In this document: positions 13,001 through 40,000 of the stretch, in pieces
Layout: the number at the start of each line of letters is the position of its first letter
How positions within the stretch are numbered: position 1 is the first letter of the stretch
Assembly: GCA_947585795.1 (NCBI GenBank)
Contig: CANPXG010000018.1
Span: forward strand, 1 to 41,570
Source: an uncultured Clostridia bacterium
GTDB taxonomy: Bacteria; Bacillota; Clostridia; UBA1381
DNA length: 41,570 bases
Reading direction: 5' to 3'
The notes under the pieces: model-generated
The model's input: only the letters and a program-made list of their open reading frames with translations
Told to the model about the DNA's origin: nothing
Databases searched by the model: none
Position numbers and translations under genes: made by a program

Positions 13001-16000
13001 CTGTCGGTGACAACGCTGACGGTGAACTCGGCGATTCGAGCACAATATCGAAGAACATACCCGTTATGGTAGGCGGCAACGACGTTATCATTAAGGACAG
13101 CGACGGCACGCCCGTTTACGGTACGTTCTATATGAAGCAAGGCGACACCGAGGACTTTAGCGCAGCATTTGACGTATTTAACCTTTATAAAGACGCGACG
13201 CTTGAGATGAATGACTTCGTATTCACGTCAAGCGACAACGAAACGCTTAACGTAACGTCAGACACGGGCGTAGCAAGTGCGGCAAAGACGGGTACGGTTT
13301 ATCTGAGAGCTATGGAAAATACTCTCAGTAAGAAGAGCGCGTTTATAAAGATCGTAATAACGGATAAGGACGTTGATATTCAGCCGAAGGCTGTTACAAA
13401 GGGTAATCACTCACTCGCGTTGAGAACAGACGGTACGATTTGGGCTTGGGGCGTGAACAGTAAGGGTCAGCTCGGAACAGGCGATACCCTCAATGTTGAC
13501 GAGCCCGTAAACGTAACGCCGGCGGGTACGACGTTTAAGGAAATAGCTGTGGGCAACGAGTTCGCTCTCGCTGTTGACAGCGACGGCAACGTATGGTCGA
13601 CGGGTGACAATACGTTCAGTCAGCTTGGTGCGGATAAGACCGTGACGGCACAGCGCACAAGCTTTGAAAAGATAGAAGGTCTTGCGGACATAACCGCGGT
13701 AAGCGCGGGTTACTCGTTCGCGATGGCTCTTGACAAGCAGGGTTACGTATGGACATGGGGCAGCAATAACAGAGGTCAGCTCGGTATAGGCAACACTGCA
13801 AACGAAGTGAGCGAGCCTGCAAGAATTCCTTCAATAGACCACGTAACAGATATTTCCGCGGGCTATCAAAACGCTATGATGGTTCGCTCCGACGGAAAGA
13901 TTTGGGCTGTCGGTGAAAACAACGGTCAGGCGGGCAACGGCTATTCGTCGGGCACGATTTGGACACCGGTTGAAATCAGGAACATAGCCGATCCGATAGT
14001 AGCTGTTTCAACGTCAGCCGACCACAGTTTGGCACTCGCGTTTGCGGGATACGTATACGCTTCCGGCAGCAACGTAAGCGGTCAGCTCGGCACCGGCGAC
14101 GGAAAGAATACAAACACGTTTGTTCAGGCGAGCAAAGACCTTGTGGGCATAACGCAGATAAGCGCAGGCAATATGTACAGTTACCTGCTTAAGAATGACG
14201 GTAAGATTTACGGCTTCGGTCTTAACAGTATCGGACAGCTCGGTATGAACGATACCGTATCAAAGACCACGCCTACGGTCAATAACTACGCGCAGCCCAA
14301 TGTTGAGGGCGTAAGCGCCGGTACGCAGTATACTCTGTTCTACACAACGGACGGATACGTATACGGCTTCGGTGACTACTCACTCGGCGCGAATTTGAGC
14401 CGAAACGAAACAAAGAGTATCGTTCCCGTACTTATCGGTGAGAGAACAGACCTCGTCGCACAGACGGAAATGACTCTGAAGGTAGGAGAAACGGGCATAC
14501 TCGAAACATATTCGGGCGAGAAGTTTAACCTGCGTCAGAACGTCGTATCAGGCGCATCGGGTGCGACATTCAAGTCAATCAACAGCGGTATCGCATCGGT
14601 TGACGCGTATGACGGCTACGCGGAGGTTACGGGCGTAAGCACCGGTATAACTCACGTGGTTGTTACGAAGGGCGACCTTACGTCGGTTACGGTAGTGCGC
14701 GTAATCGGCGCGCCCGAGGACGATACAGAAACAGAAGTTACAACATATCCGGTAGTTTCCGGCGGTTACGCGCACGTTGTGGCGCTGAAGGCTGACGGAA
14801 CAGTCTGGACATGGGGTTATAACGAATACGGACAGCTCGGTAACGGAACGATTGCAAATTCCTACGAGCCTATAAACGTTACCGCGCTTAACGGGAAGGA
14901 CGTAATAAGCGTTCAGGCGGGCGAGTATCATTCGCTGGCGCTGACGCGCAGCGGCGACGTATATGCGTGGGGACGCAATAACTACGGACAGCTTGGCGTT
15001 GGTGACGCGAGTCAGTGGATCTCTACGCCGAGAAGAGTATCCGGTCTGCCGAAGATAACGGCAATTTCGGGCGGAACGTATCATTCCGTATTCCTCAGCG
15101 AGGACGGATACGTATACACAAGCGGCGACAACAGCTACGGACAACTCGGCGTTTCTACGGCAAGCTACAGCGAGGCGTACCGTCCCGTACAAGTTCAGGG
15201 ACTTAACAAGGTTCTGAGCATCAGTCAGGGCGCGGGCGGTAACTCGACCAAGGCTGTACGCTACGACGGCACAATTTGGTCATGGGGAGAAAACGCCAAA
15301 GTTGACGAAAGCGGCGGCTATGAAACGATTGACATTCCCGAGCAGATAGTTCTCGGTGAAGAGTATGACGGTAAGGTTATAAGACTTTACGAGGGTAACT
15401 CCCACACGATGGCGCTCCTCAACAACGGTAAGCTCGTTTCGTGGGGTGCGAGAAGAGAGAACGGAGAGCTCGGAAGAAGCGATACAAATACGTTCGGCAC
15501 CGTTGAAGTGTTTGACGGCAGTGCGGGACATTACGTTGTCGAAGTAGCCGCAGGTCCCGTACATAACCTTGCTCTTACTGATGACGGTAAGGTTTGGACG
15601 TGGGGTTCGCCCGAACACGGACGTCTTGGCATAGGCGTTCAAGAAGCAAAAGACTCGAAGGCTGTTATTACTCCGAGAAGAATACAAATAGACGGTTCTG
15701 ACAATTACCGCGCGATAGAAGTAGGTACGGGCGGCTCGTCCTCGTATGTTGTTCTTGACGACGGCTTCGTTTGGAGCTTCGGTCACAACCTCAGAGGACA
15801 GCTCGGCAACGGTTACGCGGAGGAGGATCCTGCCTTCCATAAGAGTGCGGACGGCATGGATGAGGACGCGTACAACAGCGTGCTCGTAACGGGAACAAGC
15901 TTAACGCTCACGCCCGAAAGCCTTGTAATTATCAAGGGTTCGAGTCCCAGCCAGCTTGAGGTATCGTTCAACAGATTTAACCTCATCACCGACACGGCTT

Positions 16001-19000
16001 CCGTTGGCGACACGTACGAATGGACGGTAAGCGACGAGGTAGACGCAGAAGGTAAACCGCCGATTTACGCGGGCGGTCTGGTTTCGGTGGACGCTTCCGG
16101 TCTTGTAACCGGTCATGACGTGGGCTCCGCTACGGTTACCGTTACGGATACAAAGACGGGCTTCTCGAAGTCGGCGTTTGTCGAGGTTATAGATTTGAAG
16201 GATATGCGTCTTGAGAAGGTAGTATTCGACTACTCGCCTCTCGATATTATTCCTATAAGACAGGCGGTTATAGACGGTATACTTGACAACGACGAATACA
16301 GTGAAACGACAAACGAGTACGGAATCAACGTATACTCGTTCACGGATCCGCTTAAGAACGTTTACGCGGGACAGGTAGAAACGGAAACTCCCGACGCGAC
16401 GACCGTAACGGTACGCGTTAAGAGTTATATTGACCGTGACAAGATTTCTTGGGTTAAGGATGACGGCACTGAAGTAGAGGGAATACTTAACACCACGGAA
16501 AATGACCAGTTCTACGGATATTACGAGTTCTTTAACGTTCCTATAGGCGAGCTTACGGATAATTACTACTTCCGTATAGTAAACGACTCCGATGATGGCG
16601 CGTATGACGGTCGGATCAAGGCGCATACGGTAAGATTCTCCAAGAACGGAAATCTTAAGGTATTGAAGGTAGCCGTGGGCGCACCGGAAGAATACGACGA
16701 TACGTATATGAAGGACGATGATGCGCATAAGGCTCTCAAAGACGCGCCTCTCGACAAGAACGTGAAGATGGCTGTAGAAATAGACAGTTCGGGCAACTAT
16801 TACGTGATCGTCGAGGAAGAAGACGATACTGAGCTTACGGCAAAGGATATCTACATCTACGCCGAGGCTGCGGTTTCGAGTAAGGGTATTAAAGTAGCGG
16901 GAATTACGGTCAATACTGACCATCCGGACGCAAGACATGAAGTATACTATGATGTTCAGAAGGTAACATTAGAGGATGATGAAATGTCAAAGTCCGTTCC
17001 GATAATCGTAACACCGCAAAGCGGCTCGGCGGTATCGCATACGCTCACGATTTACAGACAGTCGGCAGCGACGACCGTTTCGAGTATACAGCTTGTAACT
17101 AAGGACGATGAAGGTGCAGCCTCCGCGACGTATGACGCGTACACGACCGACGATCCGCAGCGGTACGAGGTCGTAATACCCGCCGATGTGGAGATCACGG
17201 ATATTATTACAACTCCGCTTGTTCCTGACGCGGCGATCGTATCGTACATACCGACATCGCTTCTCAACGATAAGAGAACAAATACGGTAGAAGGCGCGTT
17301 TACATACGAGGGTTATATTCTTGACGACAGCACGGACGTTGAGGAAGTAACAATTCAACTCACAGCGTCATCGCTTGCGGGCGCTCCGTACACGCTCACG
17401 ATTTATAAGATAAAAGCGGACGACGATCCGTTCGTATCGGTCGACGACAGCGGTAAGCTTTCACCGATGATCATGGACGACGAAGGCACGCCAAGACAGA
17501 TGTACGTATGGGCTGTTGCCGACGACGCGGAAACGGCGAGCGTAACGATAGCGACGTCGCTTCCGAACGCGTCCGTAAAGATAGGCGAAACGACAAACAA
17601 GTATCATCTGACGGATAACGTAACTCTCAACATGAACGAGAAGGGTTACATGGACGTAATTCTAAACGTAGTTCCTGTTTCGGGCGCGGCTATTCCGTAC
17701 ACACTGCGTCTGTATAAGGAGTCTGCGGATCCGAGAATAGGCGCTCTCGACGTTAATAAGCTCAGCGATTTGAATACCCTGCTTGAAGGATACACCGTTG
17801 AGTATGACGTTAAGAACGGCAGATATGTCGCAAAAGTTAAGAATGATACGACAAAAGTAAGAGTACACGCAAAAGCGGCTCAGGAAAAGGCTCTTGTCGG
17901 TATCGCGGACACTGAGGCGAACGCGAGAAATGAAGCGTCAAGTCTGTCAACCGCATCCGACGAGGCTTATGAGGACGTACAGCTTGACGGTGAAACTACC
18001 ACGGTTTATATCGCGGTAACACCCGCAGGCTCGCAGTATAAGGCTAATCAAGCGGCTTACCGCCTTGATATAGTTAAGATGTCCGCAAATACGGCGATCA
18101 AGGTAACATTCGGCGGTGTTGAGCTGAACAGAAACAGCAGCGGCGAGTATGAGTACACTCTGCCCGCTTCAACGGACGAAATGGACAACACAACGCAGAT
18201 GCTTAGAGCCGAGGGCGTTATAATAAGCGGAGATGCAGAAACGCCCGACACGACGCTGAAGATAACCATTTCCGACAACGACACGTTTGTTATGGATAAA
18301 GACGCGACATACTTCGACGAGGCTATGTATACGGCGAAGCAGCCGGAGCCGACGATCGTTTATATCCATGTACAGGCGGAGGACGGCACGATCAGACCTC
18401 CGGTCAAGGTGAAGCTTTACAAGCTCCCCGAAACCACGGGTATAATTAAGGTTGAACTGACGGATCATCATGCTCCGACAGCGTATAAACCTACCATAAA
18501 CACATACAGCGGTCAGGCTCCTTACTCCGAGGACGGCGTTGACATATACGTTTACACGTCAGACGCGCGTTCGCAGGTTGCGGTGGGAGCAAACGGCACG
18601 CACGGCGAGTTCGTAACTCCCGAGCCGACAGACGCGCAGCATCCCGAAAACGGCGGCGTGGCACACGTTGTTCTGCCCGCTTCGCAGCTCGCGCCTCTCG
18701 CTTCGGGCGGTACGACGGCGACGCTGTATGTAAAGAGAGCCGACGGCATAGTAGAAAAGGTAGACGGCGCAGCCGTTGCCGGTGCTATGAATGAAGCCGG
18801 TCTTGAAATTACCTACGCTTCAGACGACATAAGTCTGCGCAAGGTAGACTCCGTGCCTGTGGCTGACGATGAAACGAGTCCGAATTACACAGGTATGGTT
18901 AAGACGCTCGTTGAAACCGATGAGGAAGGTAAGGAAACAGTATCGTATTACCTCGGTATCGACGACGAAGATATTGTAACCGACGGTGACAGCAAGCGCA

Positions 19001-22000
19001 TCGTTATAACGGCTGAAGCGAACGACTTCAACGCCAAGGTAATAATCCTTGATACCGACGAGGCTCTGACTGACGATATGAAGAGCGAGGCGGCGTATAA
19101 GGCGGCGAAGGAGATCTCGATCCCCGCAGAGCTTATGGATGCTCCCAAGAACTTAACGATTCTTGTAATCGCGGAGGATGACTTCAATACGAAGAGCTAC
19201 ACGCTCACGCTGCGCAGAAAGTCCTCGGATGCTGAGCTTGAATTTGTGAAGGCTATTGAAATAGAGGACGAAGACGCTAACCTCAACACCAACTCCGACG
19301 GTTATTATTACACCTATGTCGAAGAGGGCAGAACAGTCCTTCCGCTTAGAGCGAAGGCTAAGGACCATGAAGCTAAGGTAGCAATAGAAACAAATTACAA
19401 GACTCCTGTCGGCGCGGGAGGTATGACGTTCACGTCTAACGACACGACTGTGAACATAAATCTCTCCGGCGTGACAGAAGCGGAGCTTGAAACGGGTATT
19501 CTCATACCGATTTACGTCAAGTCAGAGAACGGTACCGTACAGGAATATAAGGTAAAGGTATCTTCTGTAGCGAACAACGCGGACCTCGCCAAGGTAGAGG
19601 TCGTTGTAGACGGTATTCCGAGAGAAGCCAAGAAGGACGACGACTTTGAAGCGAACGGCAAATACGTGATAAAGATTGCCGACACGCTTAGCATCGTTGA
19701 CATTATCGCTACTCCCGAAACGCCTATGGTTCAGTATGTTCACATCGGCGGTTCCTACGACGATAAGAACGAAGAAACCGGCGCGGTAACGCGCTTCAGC
19801 GTACCTGTACCGAACGCGTCCACCACGGTGGGACTCGAGGTAAAGGCTAAGAACGGTATAGTTAAGCAGTACACGCTTGAGATCCAAAAGGTACATATCG
19901 ACACAAGCCTTGAATATGTACGCGTGGAGGACACCGATGTAACTCAAAACAACGGCGTATATACCTACTACAGACCTGGCGTATCGACGATGGAATCCGT
20001 AAGGGCTGCTGTCGGCGCGGTTGACGCGAACGCCACAGTTAAGGTAGAGGCTATAAAGAGAGATACAACCAAGTCACCGTACGGCATACTGTCCGCAACG
20101 GAGCTTGACGACAGCGATCTTGCTTCTAACAGGTGGAGCAACGACGCTACCGATCTGCACGATCAGCCCGTCAACAGGTACCGTATCACGGTTACTGCCG
20201 CGGATGATTACACAACCAAGGAATACACGCTTATCATAAGAGATGACTCGAACAACACCGACGTTGAATACATCATGGTAGACACGTATGTGGCTGTTAA
20301 GGGTAATGACGGCGTTACTTGGACAGTGGAAGTACCTGAAACGATGAAGTTCGCGGACTTCAAGATACAGGCTGCGGACGAGTGGGCTAAGCTCTCATAC
20401 GTAGAGAATGTACGTGCAACTGCCGAAGCGGCATCCACGCCGAACACAGGCAGCGTATTCCAAACCGTTTCCGACATTGATGTTGAAACGGGCGACCAGT
20501 ACAAGTACTTCAAGGTACTCTCGCAGGACGGCACCGCCACGGCGGTATATGTACTCAGAATTGTCGGTACCGACACGGCTCCCGGCATTGAGGACGTAAC
20601 CGTAAACGGCATCGACGCGAACGAGCCTACGGACGACGAAAAGAGATATACATTCTTCGACGTTCTTCCGAACGCGAGCGCGGCGCTCGTTGGAGTGAAA
20701 GCGACAAGCAGAGATCTGTACGTTCAGATCGACAACGGCGAGATAACGCCTGACGGTTACGCTGAAAGCGCGGTTGAAATCAAGCTTTCCGAGTCGGGCG
20801 AGATGGAGGTTCCGTTCAGACTGTACGCGCAGCCGGGCGGCAGCCCCGTATATCAGAACACGCTTGTACTGAAGCGTCTTGGCGACGAGTTCGCGATTAC
20901 CGTGAAGGTAGACGGCGAAGAGGTTAAGAACCACAATCTTGACGGCTCGTACGTTTACTACATAGACGGTACGGAAACAGACGCTGAAGTTTCTGCGGTT
21001 GCGAACAACGAGCACATTGTTGAAATCATAGGTCTTAACGGAGTTTCGGGTGACAACAGCGACGATCCTGCAATGAACGCCGTAATTACGACAGACCTTG
21101 AGGATAGCATAAACAGCAATGTTACCGTTGTGACCATCAACGTTACTCCGGTCAACGGTGATGAAACGGGTAAGGCAGAATACAAGCTTTACATTTACAA
21201 GAAGAGCAACAACGCGAACATAGCGTCCGTAACGGCAAATCCAAACGATCCGGATAATAAGAATACGGACGATACCGCGAACGATGTTGTTACAATAAAT
21301 GTACACAATGACGAAACGGACGATGATGTTCCGACAGACTTTGAAGCGTACCGCGTATTTGTTCCGAAGGTTGAGGACAATTACAACGCGTTCGAGCTGC
21401 AGATAACTCTTGACGATATTTACGCGACGGTAGCAAGCGTCGGCGATAATTCGTCGATAGTTACGGAAAACGGAGTCGCGACCGTATCCGTTCAGGAAAT
21501 CATGGCAAACTACGATTACGACAAGGATGACGAAAACGAATCGTTCCTCGTTCCCGTAGTTGTCAAGGCACAAAGCGGCAATACAAAGACATATTATGTC
21601 ATTGTCACTCCGACCGACATGAATATGACGCTCGAGGTATTCTACGATAACGACTCTGTTCCCAAGGAGGAGGACAGCAACGACTTCATCGTATACGTTC
21701 CGACGAGCAGAAATGACGCTAATGTAAGAGTAGTATCCAACAGCATTATCTTCGGCATAAGGAACGTAACCGATGTTACGAATATCGTAACAGTTGCGTC
21801 GCCGAACGCTGACAGATACCAGTTCAAGGTTAACAATCTGTCCGGTGTTACGGACGATACCCCGTACATATACGAGGTAGACGTAGTCAAGGAAGGCTCG
21901 TCGTTCGTAAAGACCTACAGACTGATAATCAAACCGCAGAGCACAAGTACCGAGATCGACGTCACGGTAAACGGCGTAAATGCCAATTGGGTATCCGCGG

Positions 22001-25000
22001 GCGCGGGATACTATGACGGAAGTATCGCAGTAGATTCGTCGATAGCAAACGTTTACGTGAGCGCGGCGAATAAGTATACAAAGCTTCTCGTAACGACACA
22101 GGAGGAAGCGAAGAATATTACCGAGGCGGATATCCGCGATAAGGGAGAAACGTCGAGGGTATTCAATATTCCGCTTACCGAAGCACTTACGGGTGACACG
22201 GCTAAGTATTACACGATATTCATTCTTCCGCAGAATATAGACGAAGGAATTACAAAGAGAACACTGCGCATTGTAAGACGCAGCAACGATAACAGTATCA
22301 TAAGCGTAAAACGCGGCGGTGAGGAAGCCGAGAAGGAAACGACACCGAACGAGGACGGCAGCGAGAATATTACATACGTATTCTACGTTGACCAAATGAC
22401 CGAAACACCGGTGATCGACATCGAATCCGCGCTTCGCTCGACTCTCAGAGTCGGATACTATGACGGTGCGGCGCAGTGGCACAATAACGGTAATGATAAT
22501 GCGTCGGCAGATAGCGAAACGTCTGGTTGGACGTCCGGAAATACATGGAGAAATGTACTTTCGGCAGGTGCGAACAGCGGCAAGTATGTGATTGAGGTAG
22601 CGGCGGAGAACGGCGAGAAGAAGTCGTACGCTCTCGAATTCCGTACCAAGTCGTCAGACACCTCGATAAAGAGCATCATTACCGAAAAGGGTAAGAAGGG
22701 CGAGTACAATGTTGACACATCGCTTGAAGTACTGTACGAGGCGAATGTTCCCAACAGACAGACGAGTCTTGAGATTACCCCGACCGAGAAACACGCTAAG
22801 ATCACGGCAGTTCACGAGGTTGAAACTCCCGATGATTTGTCAAACGTAATAGACGTGACCGGCGATATAATTTCGCAGGGTAAGACAGAGGACGGCGCGT
22901 ACAGGTTCATGCTCAAGAAGGGCGCTGACCTTGACGCGAAGAGGTATTTGAGAATTACCGTTAAGCCTCAGAACGAGAGCTTACCGTCGAAGAACTACTA
23001 CCTGCTCCTGAAGGGCGCGTCCGACGACCTGTCCTTGAAGGAGGTTACGGTTGACGACGTAACGAGGACCGCGGATGAGGCAATTTCCGACGGTACAAGA
23101 TTTGTATTCAGTGTTCCGACGAACGCGACCGAGTCCGACGTGACGATTACGGCAAACAATCTCGCGAAGCTCGTGAAGCTGAACGAAACGAACCTGTCGA
23201 TGCCGTACTCCAACGTGCTCAGCAGAAAGTCATACACGCTTTCGGACGAGGAAGTTACGGAGCTTGTCGTAGAGCTTCATTCACAGCTTTACGTAAGCGA
23301 CGTTCGCACTCCGAACGCCAAGGCGGTATACACCGTAGCTATCTATAAGAGCAGCAATAACGCCGGCGTGGGCGAGGTTATCGTCAACGGTATAACGGCG
23401 GTTCAGCGCAGTAACAACCCGACAATTTACGAGGTTGCGATTCCGTCGACGCTCAATGCAGAGGGCGTACCGAGCGCGGCGAACCCGGCAACAGTAATAA
23501 TCCGCACCTCAAGCGGTATCGCGGAGATAACCGTTGACGGATATGAGCCTGTATACGGCGAATTTGTAACGGACGACTTTGAGCTTGACAGCCCCGAGGT
23601 TTCGACCGTAAACGAGCTTGGCTTCACGATCGTTTCCTCGTCGGGTACGGTTAAGCAGAAGTACACTCTGTACGTATATACCGATTACGAGGATACGGAT
23701 GTTAAGTCTGTTTACCTAAATAAGCAGCAGCTCAAGGCGGGCGATACGACGGATGTTGACATATCGCTTCTCTCGCTTGAACCGCTTGACGACGACAGCA
23801 GGGTTTACACGGCGGTTGTGAACAAGCGCGGACCGGTTGATATTTCAATCGTTCCCGAGGGACATATGTCGAAGGTATTGCTGTACGGTAACGGTATATC
23901 CGAGGAAGATCCGCTTGTAAGCGGCGGTAGCGACACGGGCATGGGCTACGTGTTTGAAAACCTTGCCCTCGATGAGGTGGAGGATACCGTATTCAACTTC
24001 AGAATTACAAGCTATGACGGCTCGATTGTAAGCGATCCGTATCAGATAGTAATCAAGTATGTTGAAGACTCGGATGCAGACATCAAGAGCGTTGTATTTG
24101 ACGGAGTACAGGCTGAGAAACTTGACTTTATCCCGAATACGTACGCGGTAAGAATAGACAGCGCTGTTATATACGGCGTACTCACCATCACCGCGGCGAA
24201 CGAGGATGTAACGGTCAAGCTCGGAAACAACACTTCCGTTAAGGGCGTGCTCGATGTTCCGTACAACAGAATTACAGATAACGTAATAAAGGCTGAATTT
24301 ACGGCAACGTCAAGCGACGGCAATGTAACAAAGAAGTACACCGCATACATTATAAGAAATAATGTCGGCGCAAGAGAGATTTACGTAAACGGCAATAAGG
24401 TTGAAAGAACAAGCGAAGGATACGTTTACGAGGTCGGCTATGAAGCCACCGCGGCGGAGATACTTGCTGTTGCCGACAACGAGATCTCGATGGTACAGAT
24501 CGCTTCCGGCGAGATGAGAGCGCATCGTAATACGCAGCTCGTACCGCTTACGGGCGACGTAACGACCGTTCCGGTAAGAATTTACTCATATCCGTACGGC
24601 GCTTCGGATTACGTTGAAGAAACGGTTACGCTTGTGAAGCAGGACGCTTCGCTCGGACTGTCAAGCGTACTCATCAAGTCCGAATCCGAGAGCGAGTACA
24701 GATCGGTACTCCCCGACAAGTTCGGAAACTATCTTGCGACCATTCCGTCAGCCGACGATGATGCAAGCGTTGTCATAATAGTTCATGACAAGGCGAAGGT
24801 AGGACTTATAAGAGTCAATGAAGGCTCTGAAAACAAATTGCTTGCCGAGGATACAATGCAGATCACGGTTGATAACATTCCGAATCTGACGGCAAACAAC
24901 CTGTTCTACATTGTGCTCAGCAGCGGCACAAAGACCGGCAGACGTGAACTTAGAATAGTTAAAGAAAAGGGTAACACAAGCGTTGCAGAGGTTATCGCCG

Positions 25001-28000
25001 AAAGAGGCACTGCCGACGAGTATCGTGCGGAAGACGCTTCCTGCGGCGGCGGCAGCGTAATGGCACCCGAAGAGCCTGACGGAAGCGAGAAATATCCGTT
25101 TGAGATTTCTCACCCCGCAGACTTACAGAAGATCGAGGACGACCTCGACGCGCATTACGTGCTGATGAGCGACCTTGATATGTCAAGCGTGGAATGGACG
25201 CCTATAGGAACTGAAGACAAACCGTTTACGGGAAGCTTAAAGGGTAACGGAAAGACCGTCAAGAACCTCACGATAAATACCGGAAATGAAAATAATTACG
25301 GTATATTCGGTGTGAACGACGGTAGTATCGACAACATAAAGCTTGAAAATATCACAATAAACGCAACAGCGGACGACGGTAATGACGATCAATACGTCGG
25401 CTCCGTAGCCGGTATTAACGGCGAAAACGCGCGTATAAGCCGCGTTGCGGTATCCTCCGGCACAATAGACTCCTCTTACGCATCGGGCGGTCTTGCGGGC
25501 GAGAACAGAGGTACGATTATCAACTCCTACAACAAGGCGAACGTATCGTCCTCCGAGTACGCGGCAGGTATCGCGGCTATAAACAAGGGCTCTATTGAGA
25601 ATACATACAGCGTCGGAACGGTTTCCACAAGGGCGACGTCCGACCGTGACAGCCGCATGGCAGGTATAACGGTATCCAATCTTGACAGCGCGTCTGTCGT
25701 AAGCTCGTATACCGTAGTACCCAATCAGGTATACAGCAAGGCTGTAAGCAACACAAACGTTACGGACAGCAAGGCTGTAATGCCCGAGAGCCTGTCAGAT
25801 ATAAGCACATTTGTCGGCTGGAACTTCGACAGCGTATGGACCATATCGGCGAACCAGTATCCGACAATAGCGGCTCAGACGGCTGACAGCGACGTTTCCG
25901 ACTTGAACGTTCCCGACGGCAGCGAGGATAATCCGTTCAGAATTTCCTCCGCTGTGGGACTTATGAGTATCGGTAACGACGCGGAAAGCCTGACGAAGCA
26001 CTACATACTCGAGAACAACATCTCGTTTATGACAGGCGATTCGCAGTACATCGTAATGGAACCGATAGGCAGCGAAGAAACTCCGTTTACGGGAACTCTC
26101 AACGGTAACGGATACGCCGTTACCGACCTGGTACTCTCGTCGGCTAAGAATATTGACGGCGAGGATCACTCGGCACTGTTCGCCGTAAACGACGGCACGA
26201 TTGAAAATCTTGTTGTTATCCCGAACCAGATAGGCGACGCGTCTGTACAGAATGCGGCAGCAATAGCCGGCGTAAACAACGGAACGATTTCGCAGACGGC
26301 GGTATTGTCGGGCGACATTACGGCGAAGAAGCTGTCTGCTGGTATCGCGGTTGTGAACAACGGTACTATAGAGAATTCTTACGTAAGCGAAACAGACCTC
26401 AGAAGCGATGATAAAGTCGCGGGTATCGCTGCGAAGAATACAAATAAGATAAGCCACGTATACAGCACGGCTGACGTATCGGGAGCGCTTGAATACGGCG
26501 CATCGATCGCGGCTGAAAACAGCGGAACGATCGAGTACTCGCACGCGATAGCCGGCGTACCGTTCTCAGCCGAGGACGAAGGCATTGAAACGCAGTATGG
26601 CAACAGCACGTTGTCGGCTACCGAAATGACAAGATCGGCAAACTACACCGATTGGGACTTCGACACAGTATGGACGACAGACGGAAGCTCTGCTCCGACA
26701 CTTCTCATGGAGCAGTACAACGCTATGTCGATATCGCTGATGGCTCTTGATCTTGACGATGATGAAGAAGAGCATTGCGAGCATATTGTATACATCAGAA
26801 ATACAAAGAACGCCGCTATGATCTACATCAAGGCTCAGGATCCGAATGCGACGATAATGATAACAAGCAGTATCGGCGCAGGCTCATACGTGGGCGAATT
26901 TGAGGGTATTATAAACAATCTCTTCAACGAACGCACGGAAATTCCGTTCACCGTAAGAGCGACGAACGGCGACGAGGAGCAGCATACTCTCGTAGTCATT
27001 AAGGAACCGATAGTGGCATCGCTTGAAAAGGTCGTTATAGACGACGTTGAAATTCCGCGCGTGAACAACACGTACATAGCGGAGGTTGACGCGAATGCAA
27101 GCAGCGTATTCGCCAAGTTCGTTCCCGTTTCGGGAACAGTCGAGGTAATCGACAGCAACGGATACAGCGTACAGCTTACGACCGACGATAACAAGACATG
27201 GTATAACGAAACATTACCCGTAACTCCGGGCGAGGTAACAAGATACACGTTAAGAGTTACGAACGGCAACGGCTTAGCCAAGTTTGACTATACGCTTATG
27301 CTTAAGCCCGCCGCATACCATACCGGACTTAAGTATGTTCAGGTTGACCGACTTGAACTCTCCAACGGTTATCTTGTAGGAGACGGATATGAGAATGTTA
27401 CAGATGTAGAGGATAACGTATACACGTACGTTATTGATCAGGAACTCGCGTATATCGCGATCAAGGCTGAAGCAGTCAACACAAATTCAGTCGTAAGAAT
27501 TGCCTCGAAGAGCAATAACTCGTATATCCACGAGCTTACGCAATTCTCGCTTGACACAAGCATTAAGGAATTCTATATTCCGATAGACGTAACCTCGGAC
27601 GAAAATGTCGTTGAGCACTATATCCTCCATGTATCGAGAAAGAGTATCGACGACAGTCTGAAGGACGGCGGCGTAATTGTCAAGTACGGAGAATACACAT
27701 ACACACCGGCTCCCGAGGAGAAGGTTATAGACGAAGAAACGGGCGAAAAGGCAACGGTATACGTTGTTAAGCTTGACAACCCTGCCGACGCTCCGTTTAA
27801 GAACGAAACACGCGTTGACATCTCCATTGAGGCAAACGATGTTTACGCAATCGTGAACGCGGGCAAAGATATACCCGTCAGCGATCCGACCTCGGCAAGC
27901 ACGAATAAGTGGGAAGTTAAGAATGAGCTTCTTAACGACACTGAGCTTACGATATATCAGATCAAGACGAAGGCTGCCGACCTCGACGAACCGACGGTAT

Positions 28001-31000
28001 CGTATCTGTATATCTACAAGCAGAGCGACATCACCGAGCTTGAAAAGATTGCGGCAAGCTATGAGGATGACGGAGCGACGACAACAGTCGAAGCGATACT
28101 TGACGAGAATAACGTATATCAGATATGGGTACCGTCAGACGTAACGCTTTTAGACGTTGAGGCTGTGACAAAGACCTTGCTTGCTCAGGTCAAGGTTGAA
28201 AATAACGCGTACAGTGAACACATTGACACGTTTGAAGACCTTAGCATCGCCGGCAGAAACAGCTTCGGCGTAACCGTACGCTCATCGTCCGGAAATTACG
28301 AGAAAGCATATACCGTAAACATTAACAGGCTTGACTTAAGCCTCAGCGAAGTAAATGTAGCTCCGACCGGCTCATCAATTTACAGCGACGCGCAGTATGA
28401 CAGTAACCTTGACGCTTACGTAATACGTCTTGACCCGAAGAACGCGGACGCTATTGTAAACGCGGTTGCAAAGAACAGCGACAATTACGTAAGAATAGGT
28501 CACCTGTGGAAGCCTACGGAGCCTGTACAGGCAGAAGGCATGAGTCAGGAGCAGTACGATCAGCTCTACGCCGAGTACGTGAAGGACCTTGCCGCGTTCA
28601 ATAAGAACGCCGCAAGCTACGGCTTGAATGCGGACGTTAAGTGGGACGGTCAGACCGAAGATAACGGCGGCTGGGTAATAGCAGAGAACACGTCGCTTAA
28701 CGTGCCTCTCACAGATACCGACGGCGGCTTCACGATGGTTAAGCTGCAGGTAGGTGCCGCAAATCAGAACGGTGATACCCTCGCGGAGAGAATAGGCGCT
28801 GTTAAGACGTACAACCTGCTTATCGGCAGAAAATACACGAATAAAGACAAGGATATTGACATTTACATCGACAACAAGAAGCTGACCGAGTATGAAACCG
28901 AGGACGACGGAACCATTGTCTTCAGATACGGTATCAGAAAAGACGCTTCGTCGTCGGTACTGTTCAATACCTATGAATACGCACCGTCACCGTATGATCC
29001 GACGGTAACGGTAGAGTTCCCGAACGGTGAATCCAACACTGATTTTGATCCGCTATCTAAGCCTATGAACGTCAAAGTAAATGACGCGGGTCAACCCGAT
29101 TCGGTAATCAGACTGACATCGGTTCCCGAGGCAGGTGTGGAGTACACCAAGCATTATAAGGTGATCATCTACAGACTGTCGCAGGATACATCGCTCGAGC
29201 ATGATCCGAGTTTGGAAGTAAATGCAAGAACGACTGTAAACGAAACCGGCAGAACGTCGAACTCAACCGTATCGTCGAAGATAGTGGATAACTTCATTGT
29301 AAGCGAGTCCACCATGACGGTAGATCCTGTGACAAATCAGAAGTATCTGAGAGTTCACATTAAGACCGTATCGGATAAGGCGACTATCAAGCTTAACGGC
29401 AGCAGCACGAAGTACGTCGGCGAAACAGACCTGCCGAACGACGATGTGGTAGGCATACTCATACCCGTTAATGAAGGCGAGTTTGAGAAGATCATACCGT
29501 TCACCGTAACGGCGGAGGATACGAGATTTACCTCGTCCAACGAGCTGAGAGTAACAATTCAGTCCGTAAGCACCGACGTTGATTACGTACAGGTAAACGG
29601 CTCGACAGCATTCGGACCGTTCACCGACGAGAACACGGGTATAAGATACTTCAACGGCTTCATACCCAAGACGGTACGTGACGCGGCTGTCAGTGAAGGC
29701 AGAAAGACTACGGTAGCGGTACAGGCGAAGAACCACACCAACGAGGAACACAACAAGACGATCGCCGCGCTTATGGACGACGAGGATCCGGCGCTCAGAA
29801 ATACCATCGTCAACACGACATACGCGTCGTATCTGGTATCGCATCCGTACTTACTCGACGAAGTTGATTATATTGAGAACGAGATGCCGCAGGTCATCAC
29901 CTTCTCGATCACGTCCGAATCGGGCGCAACCGAGGAATACGAGCTTCGCGTATATCTCGCGAATGACGACAATAACGACGTTGAGCCTATCGACAAGGAA
30001 AATCATGTAGATAAGGTATGGGTAGGCGTTATAGGAACGCTTGACCATATCGATCCCGCCGAGTATGACGAAACTGCGGTAGATACGTATATCGCGGGAA
30101 TCGAAGCGGGCATAACCTCAATAGAAATGAGAGTTGTGGCTGACTCCGAGTACGCGGGTATCGACATCAAGGATCCGATCACAGGTCAGTATTCGTCGAA
30201 TTACGTCCTCAAGACCAAGACGGTACAAATCTCGCACCTTGAGCCTGACAGAGGCTACGAACTGCACTTCAGAATAAGAACGCAGGACGAGATGCTTTCG
30301 GGTGTAGGCGAAGGCAGAGAGTACACCGTAAGACTTGAAAGACGCTCGAACAACAGAAACCTTAAAGAAATAACGGCGTACCCGTATGACGCGCAGATAC
30401 AGAAGAACACGAATATTACGACCGACAAGCCGGTTGTGATCAGGACAGCGTACGCCGAAACATACGTATCGGTTCTCATAGCCGCCGAGTTCGGAACGGC
30501 GCGCATCGGCTTAACGATAGATGGTGAGAACATAGTTTCCGAGAGCAGCACGTTTGACACTACGATGATGAAGCTTCCGGGACTGCCGTTCAAGGAAGAA
30601 AACGACACTATAGATCCGGTAACGGGCGAACATTCTCAGAATTATACAGTAACGGTATGGAGCTACGAGGGCGACGTAAATCCCGCGTACTACACCATTA
30701 AGCTCGTCAGAAAGATAAACGACCTCACGGTCAAGGCTGTCGAGTTCAAGGGACGTGCCGCGACGCAGGACGAGAATGATCCGCACATCTTCAGAATAGA
30801 TATCGACTATGACGAAACGGGAATTGCCGATATTTACGCTGAGGCTAACTACTCAAGCAATTATATCAAGATAAAAGATAACTCGTATGCAAAGAAATAC
30901 GACGAGTATGATACTCTTGATATAACCGACATCACAATAGACCAGCCTATGGAGGTTATCATAACCGTAGGCTCGTCGGATCTCCTCGCTAACGGTCAGC

Positions 31001-34000
31001 CCGACCAAACAGAGGTAACAAAGCTGATAATTACGAGGAACCCCGCCGAGAAGCTTAGAGATGACCTTCTCCTCAACATGTTCGTACATCACATTAAGAG
31101 TGATGACTCGAACTACACCAAAGCGGCGCTTAACAGCATCACACCGCCGACGGCGACAAAGGGTAAGATTTACAACTACATCAGCTTCATATCACCCGCG
31201 GCGACGGAAGCGTTTATCAAGTCGCAGACCAAGTCCCCGACTTCAAAGATAACGTTCTATCCGATGGACAGCAACGTAAAAACAGCGGGACCGCAGGCGC
31301 AGCAGCTTGACACATCGGTAATGATGACGTCAGACACAGAGCAGATAAGAGCTATAGTGGAAGCTGCCGACGGCAAGACGCAGGAATACACCTTGACGAT
31401 ACAGCACTCCAAGAGTGAGGTGGGACTCAAGTCCGTATTCGTGGATTACTGGCAGGATAGCTATAATCCGGGCGTTGTGGCTCAGGAGGAAGGTATGATC
31501 ACCGGCATCACAGCCGATGGCGTAACCGAATACCTAATAAATGTTCCGGCTCATACCACAAGCGTTAAACCGTATGTTCTGCCTATCGACCAGTGGGCAT
31601 ACGTTCAGTATGAGGACAGCACGGGCGTACTGCTTGACAAGCAGCAGCAGGGCATAAATCCCTCTTACAGAGGCGCGACGGTGGATGAAGTATACATCGG
31701 CGAAAAGCTTGAGTACGTATTCAACTTCACCGTAATCTCGAGAACAAACAGCTCGCCGACGAAGTACAGAATAATCGTTGTAAACAGACCTGAGGGTACA
31801 GAGCTTGTTTCGGCTGAAGTCGGTACGAGAAAAGAGGAGCATAAGGACACAGATCCCACGACATTGCTCACGGAAGATCAGCAGAACGCCGCAGTATCGT
31901 TCTCGCACGCGGTTCCGACAGGTAACGCGGCTTACGAGGGCTCCGTTCCGTTCAACTACAGAACAGACGTGAACGGCGTTTCAAAACCGACCGCCGTAAT
32001 CAGAATCAAGGCGGCGGAGGGCGCTGTGATCACAGTGGCTGACGCGCTCGGTGAGAAACAGGCTATCGGCACATTCATAGGAGAGGTTCTGCTTAACGAT
32101 GACGATCCTCCGAAGCCGACTACAGTTCCTCTGACGATAACAGATCCGTCGGGCAGAGTAACCGCACCTTACAGAATAAACATTGTAAGATACAAGTTCC
32201 CGCACGACCTCACTATTATCGCCAACGGTGAATTGACCGAGTACAGAGGTCAGGAAGACGCGGAAACGCACATTAAGTATTACTACGAGAAGCCGACAGA
32301 CCTTCCGTTCATGCTTGACACGGCAACGCTGAACATAATCATGGCGGCTCCGGGACTCCAAGCGGATCATATAACGCCTATTACATACTCACTGAAGGTA
32401 GGCTCAAATGCTCCTGTTGAGATAACGAAGGATAAGACGTACACGATAAGCACAGTACCGCTTTACGGCGAAGTAACAAGAGTTCCGATTCAAGTCTACG
32501 GACAGAAGGATACTGTCGATGCCGGCGATGAGATGTCGCTATTGTCAGAGTACTACGTAACTATAAGACGCAGACAGGCGAACTCTAACATCGGCGTGGT
32601 ACTGGTAGATGATAACGAAGCATCGTCAACGGTTATTAACGGCGAACCCGCGTTCGAGGCGTACTCGTACTCGGCTGCTCAGCCGCCAACCGCGAAGGTA
32701 ACCATTATGGCGACCGACAACCACGCGAAGCTGTCATTGTCGGGACAGACGATAGAACAGGCTTACGCGGGCGAAACGAACGGATTCCTTGAGGCTAACG
32801 TTAAGCTTCAGGAGGGTGAGAACTACTTTGAGATACAGGTAGATAACCCGAACGAGCTGCCGTACTTCTACACGCTGAGGATTATACAGGTTCCGGTTGA
32901 CGTATATCTCGACGATTTGTACGCGACCAAGCAGGACGACAAAGACAAGTTGCCGTTCTACAACTCGACATTCCATAAGACAATAACGAGTTACACGATA
33001 TTGTCGGATAATAAGACGAGTGATTACGACATATTCGCAAAAGCGTTTGAAACGGCAACGGCACTTCAGGCATACGCCGAGGCAAAGGGATTGGATAAGT
33101 CCGAGTATCAGACAAGAATAAAGATTGGCAACAATACGTTTGAACAAGTCCAGTCCACGGATATAGCGGACATTGACAAGTACATAGAGCAATATGTAAG
33201 CACACTCTTAAACGGTGACATTCCCGAATATGTAAGTATACCGATCGAGCTTATGGTACCGCACTTTACGCGTACGTACAAGATTGAGATACATGATCCG
33301 TCAGACGACGCGACGCTCGACAATCTGAGAGTATTTGACCATAGCGAGCAGATACCCACGGATACGACGCTTGATTACGCGCTTGATCCGTCATTCGATC
33401 CCGATACGCTCGAATACACGGTTGATATTCCGTCAGACGTGACCAATGTGGACATCTACGCGAGAGCAAATCACCAGCATGAAGGCGCTCAGACGCTTGT
33501 TGCACTCGTTAAGGGCGGAGAAAACAACCCGATAGAGAGCAGCTTCATCATGCTGCACCACAATGTACAGCTCGACTACGGTAACAATGTATTCTATGTG
33601 AACGTAACGAGTGAAACCTCGTCCATGCTCACATATAAGCTTAACATTTACCGCAAGCCGTTAGACGCTGATCTCAGTCAGCTTCGCGTAAACAACATGC
33701 CGGTTACAAAACAGGCTGACGGAACGTATGTAGCGTACGTGGCGATGGATTCAAATCCTGTTGTCACAGCCAAGGCAAGCGACACAAGAGCAGTAACGAC
33801 GCTCTCATCGGGCGGTCAGACTGCGGTTTCGGACAACACAAACACTGATCCGGATAAGCAGTATTGGGCAACTCTCGTTATGCAGAAGATCACCCAGCCG
33901 TCCACGACCGTGAACGTAAATGTGGCTCTGTCAGTTGACGGACTCTCGATCAGTAAGGATTACAAGCTTACGATCATAGGCGTTAAGGCTAACCCCGAAT

Positions 34001-37000
34001 ACAACGGAAACGACATCGTAAGCATTTACATGGATGTGGAAGGCAGCAGCTTCACGGATGATCCGACCATTCCGTACGCGAACCCGATAGGCGCGGTATG
34101 GAACGCGGAGGAAGGATATTACGAGATAGGCATACCTTACACAGCCCCGAACAATCCGTACATGAGAGTTATAACGCTCAATCCGGGCAAGCTCGTAGGC
34201 ATAGGCGCGGGCGAGAATAACGCCAAGGCGCCTGACAGCGGTTCTGAAATTCAGTTCACGGATCAGGTATACCTGATACAGCCCGACATTAACGGCAGAT
34301 ACCTTGTAAACATTGCCGTTAAGGATAAGATAACAGGCGAAGCTACAAATTATAAGGTATACGTAACAAGACTGTCGAATGACGCAGACCTTATTGTTCT
34401 CGATCCGGAAGCGGGCGTAACGCTCGATCCGTCGTTCACAAGCGAGGTCAAGGAATACACGATAGATGTTGACAGCTACACCGACAGCGTGAAATTCGAC
34501 GAGATCCGCGCAAGCGAAAACGCTTCGATAAAGCTCATGCTTTCATCGTCAAGCGGTTCGAGCGTAATTGACTTCACGAACGGAAGCTCGTACACCTACA
34601 GTTCACTCGTTCCGGGCAACAACCTTATGAAGATACAGGTAACGTCGCAGGATACGACGATAACCAAGGTATACACCGTCAACATCAGACGTCAGGTTCC
34701 CGTTACGGACGCGGCTCTCGATGATATCAGAGTACAGATAGGCGACAAGTTCTACAGCTTGGTACCGATGTTTGATAAGGACGTATTAAGCTATGACCTT
34801 GTTATTGAGGCTCAAATCGACGAAACGGAAACACCGATAATCATAACGGCTACTCCGGGAGCCGACGCGGAATACTCGATAACAGGAAACTTGAACGGCG
34901 TGAACAAGGATACCACGACGCTCGGAACTCCGAATGTTGTCATAATAGGCGGCGAAGGCAGCGAGAAGCTTGAGAGCAAGTCCACGACGACGGTAATGTT
35001 CAGTATCGCCGCAGGCGATGTAGTGGCTCGCGAATACAAGATAAACCTGTACAAGAACGAAAATGTAAACATCAATCCTAAGCATAACTTCCTGTCGGGT
35101 ATATCGCTGGCTAACCACCCGCTGACGATGGTCAACTCGTCGGATATCGATTACAACTACTACGCGAACGTTCTGAATATCGAAACGGAAGACTTCCTGA
35201 CGCTAATTCCGAACCTCAGCGTAACGGGAACAGTGGGCGACCTTAAGGCTCACCTGTACGCGATGAATAATACAGACGTTCAAACGCCTGACCTTACGCC
35301 GGGCGTACCCGTACAGCTCAAGTTCAACCCGGGCAACAACCTGTTCATCATCTTGGTTGAAGACACCGCGGGTGAGAACAAGAGATACTATTCGATCACT
35401 GTCAACAGAGAATCGGATCAGAAGGCGAGTCCGTACCTTAACAGTATCACTGTTCCGGGACACGACATGACTCCTGTATTCGATCCCGACACAACATCTT
35501 ATAAGATGACTGTTGACAAGGATGTTGACTTCATCTCACTCAGAGCAGAGGCAGACAACTCACTGTCCGAAATTTGGGTAAGAAGTGAAGCTCAGGATTA
35601 CGACTTCATCAACGCCGGTATAGCGAACGCCGAGGACATTCCGATCGTGGAAGGCAATAACAAGCTTGTCATCACATCATCGGCACCCGACGGCTTAACG
35701 AGAAAGGTTTACGTGATCAACGTATACAAGATGGGCGAGGACGACGACGCTGACCTCATCGACATTCAGTATACGGAAGGCGGAGTAATGAGCCCGCTGT
35801 TCGACAGCGACATCGTAAACTACAACCTGGCGTACAAGTACGAGGAGGCAAATATAGTTCTTACTCCTATAGCAAGAATGCCTGAGGTAACAGACATATC
35901 CGTAACCATAAACAACGGCGGCTCAACGACCGTTGAAAGCGGCGAAGGCGTAGCGGTTACGCTGCCTGTCGGTATGACGAAGGTTACATTCCATGTAACA
36001 AGTCAGGTAGAATATACCGACGGCTCCGGCAAGCTGCACACGCTCTCGGGCGACAAGACGTATACGGTCAACATTTACCGTGATCCGTACGAAACGCCCA
36101 TACCCGAGCTTACGTCGGCTATAGAGGTACGCGACCGGAACTTCAAGAAGTATGAGCTGGCTCCCGCGTACAATAAGGACGAACATTCGTACTATGTAAG
36201 CGTACCGTCCGACTTCGACACGGCACGCATAAGAGTATTCGCCGAGTCCGGCGATCCCGATAACAAGAATGATATAACGATAACCGTAAACAATAAGTCG
36301 GCGGCTAACGGCAAGGATACCGTCCTCAACAATATCGTATACGGCGACAACATCGTTACGATCACTCTTGCGAACTCGCAGGGCAACCACGAATACTACA
36401 CGGTAGTTATAAACCGTGCAGAAGAGGGACTTGATCCCAAGCTTGAAAACCTTGAAGTAGTGCAAGACTTCGAGCTTGATCCGTCATTTGATCCGGACAC
36501 TGCGGCATATGAGATCAACGTTAATTCCGATACGGAAATAATCAATCTCATCCCGACAGCGTCAGACGCGAAGATCACCATTAACAACCTGACGGTTGAA
36601 AGCGGTAAGCCCTCGCAGAATCTTATCCTTAAGAAAGGAAAGAATACGGTACTCGTAAAGGTAACGGCTCTTGACACGTCGAAGAGTCCCGCCGAGGTAA
36701 CGACGACGAACAAGGTATATATCGTAAATATCTATCGTCCGAATGAAAACGGCGACGACTTCCTCACAAAGCTTACTCTTAACAAGGGAACGATCGTTCC
36801 GGCGTTCTCGAGAGAGGTAAGAAATTACTTCGTAACCGTTCCTTACGACGTTGACGAGGTAGAGCTTGACACCAAGGCGAACAAGGAAGACACGATAATC
36901 AAGGTAAACAGTGACCTGTACGCGAACGCTCCGATGGTTCTGCCGCTGACGGCAGGCGAGGATAATTCGGTATCGATCAGACTGTATGCTGAAGAAACGG

Positions 37001-40000
37001 ATTCAATGCCGCTTGCGACATACACGCTGAAGATATTCAGAAAAGACCTCATGGCAAACGTTCCCGACCTTGCGTCGCTGACGGTAAACGGCGAAACGAT
37101 ATTCCCCGAGTTCTCACCGAGAGAGCTTAACTACTACGCTTACGTTGACAGCAGTCTGACCGAGGTTTCGGTTAACGCGTCGGCTGCGGCTAAGGACGGC
37201 GTTGTAAGCGGCGTTGGCGTAATACCTCTTGAGGACAGCAAGACAGTGAACGTCATAACTGTTCGCAACGGCTCGACGCTGCAAAGATACTCGCTGACCG
37301 TTCTTAAGGAGAGCGCGGGCGACGACCTCCAAGGCACTATCAACACAAGCGATAACTTCGACTCCGTACCGGTACAGACATTCACGGTAGCCGACGGCAC
37401 AACGGTTGTTCCGATTATGGTACACACCGCTTCGGCTCCCAACGATGAAATAGTTGTCACGATAAACGGTGTCGAGGTTGAAAGCGACAAGGATATTGAG
37501 TTCGCAATGACGACTCAGAAGGAACGCTTTGACATATCGATAAGACATACGACCGAGCTTGGCAAGGTATACAATAAGGCATACGTAGTTTATAACGAAA
37601 GCGATGCCGAGAAGCCTTACGAGCCGTATATCGACCATATCAAGGTTGATCCGTCAAGCGAGCCTACAGGCAATGACGCTAAATTCTTCACGACCTTTGA
37701 CAACAAGGTATTCGCTTACGAAGTTACAAACAACTCCGCTGCGCCGTATCTCTACGCATCGTCCGATGACGATGAGGCGTACATCGAGCTGTTTGACGAG
37801 GAGCTTAACGATTACGCGTTGATCGACGGCTTGGGAAGCTACATCGCCGAAACCATAGGCGACAGCGGCAAGGCTGTATTCAAGTTCCGCGTAACGAAGT
37901 TCGCGTCAAGCGGATACGAGCTTGTGAACGAGTACGAAGTGACCGTATACAATACGGACGCGCCGATACTCAAGAACCTGTGGACAGAAAACGCGATCAT
38001 GAAGAAGTCGTTCGATCCTGTAGTAAGAGATTACGACGTACTCATAGGTCCGCAAACAGAGAAGTTTACCGTATTTACGGAGCATACGTATGAGAACAAG
38101 GGAATTGAGATCATAAGTATGAATATTGACGGCGGCGAATACGTATCAGGCAAGACAAGACAGTTCACAGACCTGTCGCTTGACCAAGACGAATTTACCG
38201 TAAACGTCAAAGTATCCGTTGACGGTGAAGAAGGAATATACGTTCTCCACGTAATACGCAGCGATGAGCTTCTTGCCGAGGTATTTATCAAGAACCTTGA
38301 AATCAAGGACGAAACAGATACCGAGGAAACAGGCGACAAGGACGGCTTATACGAGCTTACGCCTGACTTTGAAAGCGAAAAGGCTTCGTATACGACGACA
38401 GTGAACTACACCGACAATTCGGTAACGCTTACCGTAACGGCGTTCAAGAGTGGCAATGAAGATGAAGCCAAGAACGACATACTGTCCGCTAAGCTCAGCG
38501 ACGGTACGGAAATACCGCTTACAAGCGGCGTTGAGGCTGAGATCATTCTGCCCGAAACCTTCCTGCAGAGCGACAGCTCGACAGAGGTTATCACGATTTA
38601 CGTAACCGACGCCGATACGAATGAAACGGGCGAGTATAAGCTCACTGTCAAGAGAGGCAGCCGCGCAAACGGCATCTCAAGACTTGAATCTCTTACGACC
38701 GATAAGGGCGACTGGTCTGACACGTTCAACGCGGAGAAATATGATTACACGATCAAGATAAATCCGAACGAGAGCGACATAACCGTTACGGCTGTTGCCA
38801 AGAATGTGTATGACGACATAGTAATGACGTACAACGGAGTAAGCACAAGCGCCGTTCCGTCAGAAGCGTCCAACAAGTTCACTCTCAAGGACGAGAAGGA
38901 AAGCTACATCTTCGTAACAGTCGGCTCCGACAAGGACGGCACGGCATACACGTATGTTCTCAAGATAATGAGAGAAAATACCGCGGTGCTGAGCAACCTT
39001 ATAGCGAGAGATGAGGAAGAAAACGAGTACGACTTGCTCGACAAGAACCTTGTAAAGACCACCTTCGACGGACAGGTAAGCTCCTATAACATACTTATAG
39101 ATCCGCTTGCCACGGAAATCGAATTTGAGCTTATCACGGGCGAATACAAGCCTACACTGACGATGAAGAAGGACGACGAGAGCGAAATCATGACGACGGC
39201 TACGGATACGACCTCCCTGACGTTCAACATGATCCACCTGTTCGACCTCTCACTCAGTCAGAAGACGTTCGACTTCGAGTTCGGAGTTGAGAGCACGGTC
39301 GGCGGCGAGAAGAAGATAGGTAAGTACTATGTAACCGTAATAAGAGATACCGACGCGGAAGAAGCGCTTATGCAGTCTACCGTAACGGGTAACGTTCTCT
39401 CGGTTGCGGCGGAAAACCACATCGCGACGATCACGCTGTACGACAAAGTCAATGAACAGTTTGTTCCGATTGACAAGGACGGCAATATGGAAACTCAGTC
39501 GTCACTGTCAGGCAAATTTGAAATTCCGCTTCTCAACGAAGGCGTATATGACGTGATCTTCGAGAGGGACGGATACCTGGACTACAGAATAGAAAATATA
39601 GTTGCCGAAAAGACGTTCGTACCGGCTACGTACTACTTCAAGGTAGTAAGGATCCAGCCCGGTAACGTAACCGATTACGGCGACAGTGATGAGCTTGTAA
39701 ACTACGCGGATATCAACCTTATCAACGTCTTCCTGTACAACCAGATATTCTACTCATATCAGGGACGTATAGTTGATGACGGAGAAAAGATAGACGAACC
39801 TATAGTATACAAGGAATTGGCTGAGAACAATGTTCTTGAACAACAGAACGAGCTTGACAAGCAGGACGACGAAACGACAGGTAAAGACGACACCGAGCAA
39901 AAAGCTCCCGATGCCGACGAACCGCAGCAGGATACCGGTGAACCCGGTACGCCCGAAGGCGATCCCGGTATGGGAGAACCGAGTATCGGAGAACCGAGCA

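Follow-up and report, generated by a model that had tools for sequence, protein, structure and literature searches.

The window, by which is meant the whole stretch of DNA analysed here, is one complete contig (C18) of 41,570 bases from a genome of 2.54 Mb that is 86.5% complete. It carries one large open reading frame, a giant whose product is laid out as RCC1 repeats, then cadherin-like modules, then a C-terminal dockerin-like tail. A profile built for this work counted 36 cadherin-like modules between about residues 5598 and 12991, and a Pfam scan placed PF12733 (Cadherin-like beta sandwich) in 10 stretches of residues 9001-13554 (E 5.8e-83), a tandem arrangement that marks the product as a cadherin-like stalk protein. 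The subject here is one stalk module that is split by a long insert and is not itself among the stretches reported for PF12733 in the Pfam scans of the frame. The features are given below, with a second numbering from A2, an alignment of the window with seven related loci.

1..40665, + strand: giant surface-protein open reading frame, 13,554 codons, 5' end open at the contig edge
24973..25041, + strand: N-terminal part of the split stalk module, residues 8325-8347
25042..25044, + strand: Cys8348 (A2 residue 24), present in 8/8 insert-bearing and 0/6 insert-free sequences
25045..25095, + strand: N-terminal linker, model pLDDT < 50 for A2 residues 25-33
25096..25878, + strand: GLUG-like beta-helix unit 1, residues 8366-8626
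25933..26712, + strand: GLUG-like beta-helix unit 2, residues 8645-8904
26713..26775, + strand: C-terminal acidic linker, model pLDDT < 50 for A2 residues 581-601
26776..26778, + strand: Cys8926 (A2 residue 602), present in 8/8 sequences with the insert; a lone Cys in 3/6 insert-free ones
26779..27009, + strand: C-terminal part of the split module, residues 8927-9003
26782..26784, + strand: His8928 (A2 residue 604), His in 11/11 Cys-bearing copies of the split module, where sister modules mostly have Tyr
26983..26985, + strand: His8995 (A2 residue 671), His in 11/11 Cys-bearing copies of the split module, where sister modules mostly have Tyr
40510..40512, + strand: Cys13504, the third Cys, first residue of the dockerin-like CDFDKDG loop
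40933-41568: downstream cluster as it appears in the window, with counterparts at G004:C56:76135-94877, G008:C12:41396-60122 and G013:C3:41016-59967

The N-terminal side of the giant frame reaches a contig edge in the window's genome (G000) and in G008, G013 and G019, and RCC1-like sequence is seen by eye at those edges in the first three (window positions 1-15000 in the window); such repeats may be the cause of the assembly breaks. At the other end of the protein, the CDFDKDG loop presumably resembles a dockerin motif. Two dockerin-like half motifs can be picked out by eye at about window positions 39640-40580, with a long acidic low-complexity linker between them, and a Pfam search of window:39301-40662 returned no row for Dockerin_1 at a maximum E of 10. 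Downstream of the giant, G004, G008 and G013 share a set of five large open reading frames, alike in size and order; one of those in G004 has SLH domains, and several have dockerin-like ends by eye. A cohesin was sought in the frame downstream of the giant, where Pfam gave no row at a maximum E of 10 and NCBIfam only matches below cut-off; a single-sequence model of that product had a pLDDT of 42. The cluster could possibly serve as a cell-surface scaffold, to which the giant would be anchored through its tail.

The nested arm and its host module

The insert between Cys8348 and Cys8926 comprises 577 residues and consists of two GLUG-like beta-helices with 32% identity between them; the N-terminal and C-terminal parts of the split module together make up one strand-rich module. 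An AlphaFold model rendered both helices with confidence and both linkers and junctions with low confidence. The fold of the helices matches that of PDB entry 3n6z and of the IgA1 protease helices, confirming a beta-helix of GLUG/M26 type. The units are nonetheless called only GLUG-like, because their Pfam scores lie under the curated cut-offs (14.3 bits against 20.5 for Glug, and 18.1 against 27.7 for Peptidase_M26_N). Searched by sequence, the insert had no solved relative at E <= 1, and the module gave only weak, unrelated rows.

Relatives carrying the same insert were found in two ways. A search of 61 genomes, 35 of which had GLUG-like matches, turned up close copies of the insert region in G008, G004, G001, G013 and G019. 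A scan of GTDB contigs listed 14 loci, seven of which span nearly the whole query (the same five together with L061 and L062); these seven and the window make up A2, from which the partial query matches (L065-L071) were left out. Records of related loci are named as uncultured Clostridia, Lachnospiraceae, Oscillospiraceae or Peptococcaceae bacteria, and the isolate names point to a gut origin. The insert lies at the same place in seven further records from separate assemblies, which rules out an assembly artefact.

Copies of the module that lack the insert were sought with the C-terminal part of the module (70 genomes) and with an insert-free module (95 genomes), and were found in other giants: G014, G020, two contigs of G003 (C348 and C267), G007 and G011. 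Three of these giants are uninterrupted frames of exceptional length, located as follows.

G007, C6:4459-103572 (L035-L040): giant open reading frame, 33,038 codons
G011, C42 (L028-L034, L082): giant open reading frame, 33,070 codons
G014, C4:18119-106258 (L022-L027): giant open reading frame, 29,380 codons

To our knowledge these are among the longest bacterial open reading frames. They have signal-peptide-like starts by eye, contain stretches collinear with the window family, and belong to the same genus. In G014, G020 and G003:C348, no more than 0 to 3 residues separate the sequences that flank the insert in the window. A VIAERG-like (VIAERGT-like) signature of the split module occurs once per sequence in 14 homologues, some of them partial, and so fits one orthologous module. 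A profile of the C-terminal part of the module matched 4/391 genomes of the class, with strong E-values only in G000 and G014; the same search listed no match in G008, G004 or other known carriers. The matches in G443 and G326 are by eye ordinary modules with tyrosine at both histidine positions, each in a 455-residue frame.

These comparisons bear out the architecture claimed in a preliminary description of this DNA, namely a duplicated GLUG beta-helix within a stalk module whose halves rejoin: the naturally insert-free relatives contain the same cadherin-like module whole. Taken together, the insert-free relatives, the conserved boundaries and the predicted helices establish, at the level of sequence comparison, an insertion into one module. 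The description had also foreseen that the insert would project from the middle of the stalk as a side arm, about 575 residues long. A separate arm within one module is what was found; the projection itself is inferred. Its further statement, that the design is not explained by simple domain shuffling, holds only in part. The 29-33 kaa relatives have a related unit of GLUG-like type close to their N-terminus (at about residues 2040-2530), so that the insertion does look like domain shuffling, and it is the conserved set of cysteines and histidines that forms the addition. The N-terminal position of that unit suggests that such a head can be carried at more than one point along the stalk. In the window protein the double helix probably serves as a mid-stalk binding head and, judged by fold alone, the arm probably offers a surface that binds a glycan or protein, as do the beta-helix domains of other surface proteins.

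Cysteines, histidines and the three states of the module

Cysteine is scarce in the giant protein. A count confirmed the assertion that there are only three in 13,554 residues (0.22 per 1000), two of them at the insert junctions, and all three sit at conserved positions. A cysteine begins the dockerin-like loop (CDFDKDG and variants) in 9/9 giants whose C-terminus was read, and in G004, G001 and G019 a second tail cysteine follows 17 residues downstream of the first. Obligate anaerobes tend to keep cysteine out of exported proteins, as described in PMC12453122, and the rarity in the giant is consistent with this. The exclusion is a trait of the giant and not of its genome, because three other GLUG-containing frames of G000 hold 12.4 (C26; L107 8235-19394), 9.7 (C16; L108 3833-11239) and 13.9 (C52; L109 7691-11134) cysteines per 1000 residues. 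Those three frames show NCYN ladders, and the giant has Ser or Thr at the ladder position.

The two junction cysteines were expected to be conserved in homologues, and they are: both occur in 8/8 insert-bearing sequences, and an insert without the pair was met in 0/8. These sequences share 34-82% pairwise identity, and their two cysteines are separated by 564 to 591 intervening residues. Within the linkers (A2 residues 20-41 and 576-601), no positions are invariant but Cys24, P35, G37 and S38, the second linker having none at all, and every other column of A2 that contains a cysteine does so in 1/8 rows. Such conservation amid almost unconserved linkers rules out chance placement. The arm with its conserved cysteine pair is thus a real, conserved and unusual domain-insertion design in a giant adhesin-like protein.

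The cysteines are accompanied by two histidines. The equivalent of Cys8926 and both histidines occur together in 11/11 copies and are all missing, with Tyr/Tyr in place of the histidines, in the 3/3 copies that lack cysteine. An alignment of the 11 Cys-bearing modules has 8 invariant columns, three of which are C, H and H; in A2, C24, C602, H604 and H671 make up four potential metal ligands that are invariant in 8/8. Among 324 module matches in 11 frames, histidine at the first position, and the His/His combination, are found only in the 9 Cys-bearing copies of the split module that this set contains (the first position being gapped in 71 matches and the second unscorable in 82). Five further matches are Tyr/His, and histidine at the second position (14/324 overall) is not rare by itself. 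A looser set of matches gave first-position histidine in 10/457 (68 gaps), nine of them Cys-bearing copies of the split module; the ten comprise eight His/His copies, the G020 copy, whose end is unaligned, and one other G014 module. Second-position histidine was found in 21/457 of this set, and Tyr/Tyr was the commonest pair (273/457).

A mean-field coupling analysis of all modules ranked the two histidine columns 3 of 3,160 pairs. Once the His/His modules were removed the pair fell to rank 410, not above 40 permutations, and contact between the two positions therefore lacks independent support. Profile columns 3 (that of Cys8926) and 76 ranked 18-29 in all three versions of the analysis, a coupling that fits the same strand register weakly. 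The strand of His8928 and the last strand presumably lie side by side, as in Ig-type folds.

The module thus exists in three states. The first, state A (G007, G011 and G003:C267), has neither insert nor cysteine and carries Tyr/Tyr. State B (G014, G020 and G003:C348) also lacks the insert and has one cysteine 3 residues before a histidine, with the second histidine in the last strand; an Asp is aligned with Cys8348, in an alignment of 3 sequences beside a gap. No partner for this lone cysteine was found within 1,063 residues around it at each of the three loci. State C, the eight insert-bearing sequences, combines the cysteine pair with His/His. Unrooted trees were built from the 500 residues upstream and the 500 residues downstream of the module. 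The state C rows all fall on one side of one branch with support of 100/100, and the state A rows do likewise; state B forms one group in the upstream tree (77/73) and is not resolved in the downstream tree. The three states amount to two changes on the tree, and the presence of the insert to one. The association of cysteine, histidine and insert accordingly reflects one or two events, not many, and since the trees are unrooted, gain and loss of the insert are both compatible with them.

What holds the base of the arm

The preferred explanation, to which we give a probability of roughly 45%, is that the cysteines and histidines form a Cys-Cys-His-His metal clasp and not a disulfide. In one clade of giant surface proteins of uncultured Clostridia, a GLUG-like helix pair is inserted close to where the first hairpin of a cadherin-like module has its tip, and the module would fold around it, leaving the helices to project as the side arm. 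Low-confidence linkers, probably flexible, would join arm to module with Cys8348 and Cys8926 at their ends, and these two residues align with nearly adjacent turn residues of the uninterrupted module. Cys8348, Cys8926, His8928 and His8995 would most probably be the ligands of a transition metal, for example zinc, in a site that may both clamp the base of the arm and close the interrupted module. The lone cysteine of state B, the same two histidines and perhaps the Asp aligned with Cys8348 could form a simpler site, either the origin of the four-ligand site or its decay product. In favour of the clasp are the cysteine pair kept amid diverged linkers, the joint occurrence of the Cys8926 equivalent with both histidines, and the want of dedicated disulfide catalysts over cut-off in 16 genus genomes. 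Against it are the coupling of the histidine columns, which vanished without the His/His modules, the one or two events behind the association, and the fact that second-position histidine is not rare by itself. The conserved tail cysteine (9/9) also counts against the clasp, as a lone conserved cysteine need not bind metal. A fuller version of the account, held a little more tentatively, is that the clasp let a stalk module keep its fold while accommodating the 577-residue double beta-helix, as a non-disulfide staple in bacteria without known disulfide catalysts, the lone-Cys relatives preserving the simpler site.

The preliminary description had instead proposed a disulfide stapling the base of the insert. 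On this reading oxidation of Cys8348 and Cys8926 would close the interrupted hairpin beneath the arm, and the histidines would be incidental. This possibility is less probable than the clasp and still a serious one. The pair occupies corresponding ends of the insert in 8/8 sequences, and Cys8348 occurs only where there is an insert (8/8 against 0/6); the part of the proposal that ties the pair to the insert therefore stands. The bond itself sits less easily with the Cys8926 equivalent that stands alone in three insert-free relatives and is always accompanied by His/His. Nor did the enzymes come to its aid. The description had looked to thiol-disulfide oxidoreductases in the genome, and five families, DSBA (PF01323), VKOR (PF07884), DsbD_TM (PF02683), Thioredoxin_4 (PF13462) and DsbB (PF02600), gave 0/16 matches over cut-off in genus genomes that are 77-99% complete (a set outside which the insert carriers G019, L061 and L062 lie); a single DSBA match under cut-off was seen in G003. 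The same searches in control genomes found DSBA in 8/14, VKOR in 3/14, DsbD_TM in 10/14, Thioredoxin_4 in 9/14 and DsbB in 6/14. AhpC-TSA, to which the Streptococcus catalyst SdbA belongs (PMC12453122), matched 6/16 genus genomes, two of them (G013 and G009) over cut-off and the remaining four under it. It had no match in the carriers G000, G008, G004 and G001, G013 being an exception as a carrier with a match over cut-off. Spontaneous oxidation, or catalysts of other families, could possibly supply the bond; PMC12453122 describes functional DsbA/VKOR in some Clostridia, and a giant adhesin with a strand-linking disulfide exists in Mobiluncus mulieris (PMC10619420).

Two other accounts are unlikely. 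One or both of the cysteines might be a free or exchangeable thiol, facing outward and serving, for example, to cross-link neighbouring stalks or to bind a host thiol or cofactor; the histidines would then tune reactivity. The persistence of the Cys8926 equivalent in state B beside two histidines would fit such a role, as would the conserved placement of all three cysteines of the protein; that Cys8348 tracks the insert, at its other end, suggests instead that the pair acts together. Slightly less likely again is that the cysteines and histidines are structural remnants, packing residues that come from a single ancestor and persist because drift is slow, with the arm held by ordinary beta-sandwich packing. 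The presence of the insert is a single change on the tree, so that the states are not independent replicates, and the want of independent support for the histidine contact also speaks for this account. Against it, the linkers have diverged almost wholly at 34-82% identity, yet both cysteines are kept in 8/8, and the other cysteine columns of the region hold one in 1/8 each.

The module occurs in related bacteria in three natural forms (insert-free, lone-Cys and paired-Cys), which makes the tolerance of the stalk for a large nested arm directly testable. Should a metal hold the arm, as in the preferred clasp, the staple would do without machinery for oxidative folding and would offer a design idea for nested domains.

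Relation to known giant adhesins and beta-helices

A search by title and the start of the abstract, in a literature whose coverage takes in few subscription papers, found no description of a GLUG insert in a cadherin-like module. The split module already departs from ordinary PF12733 stalk modules in having histidine at two positions that are mostly tyrosine. The compared fold is that of the GLUG/M26-type beta-helices, represented by BACOVA_03286 (PDB 3n6z) and by NTD2 of the Gram-positive IgA1 metalloproteases (PMC9637739). The window protein differs in having two such helices in tandem, nested in a stalk module, and no M26 catalytic domain is listed for it: Peptidase_M26_C is absent among the Pfam families at E <= 0.01 in four pieces spanning the giant frame, whose 5' end lies beyond the contig.

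The giant adhesin of M. mulieris (7,651 residues) is likewise a very long surface chain of Ig-like modules, and mass spectrometry found a strand-linking disulfide in an isopeptide module of this protein (PMC10619420). That bond is of short range (Cys6887-Cys6895) and lies in an ordinary repeat module, whereas the cysteines of the window protein are 578 positions apart, flank an inserted arm, are accompanied by two histidines, and occur in a genus without detected disulfide catalysts. Giant1-4 of Apilactobacillus kunkeei, also giant proteins of the cell surface, carry a beta-solenoid for which binding of glycans or cells has been proposed (PMC12863079); their solenoid stands at the N-terminal end, before long repeats, whereas the window protein bears its double helix as an arm nested in mid-stalk, on beta-sandwich modules.
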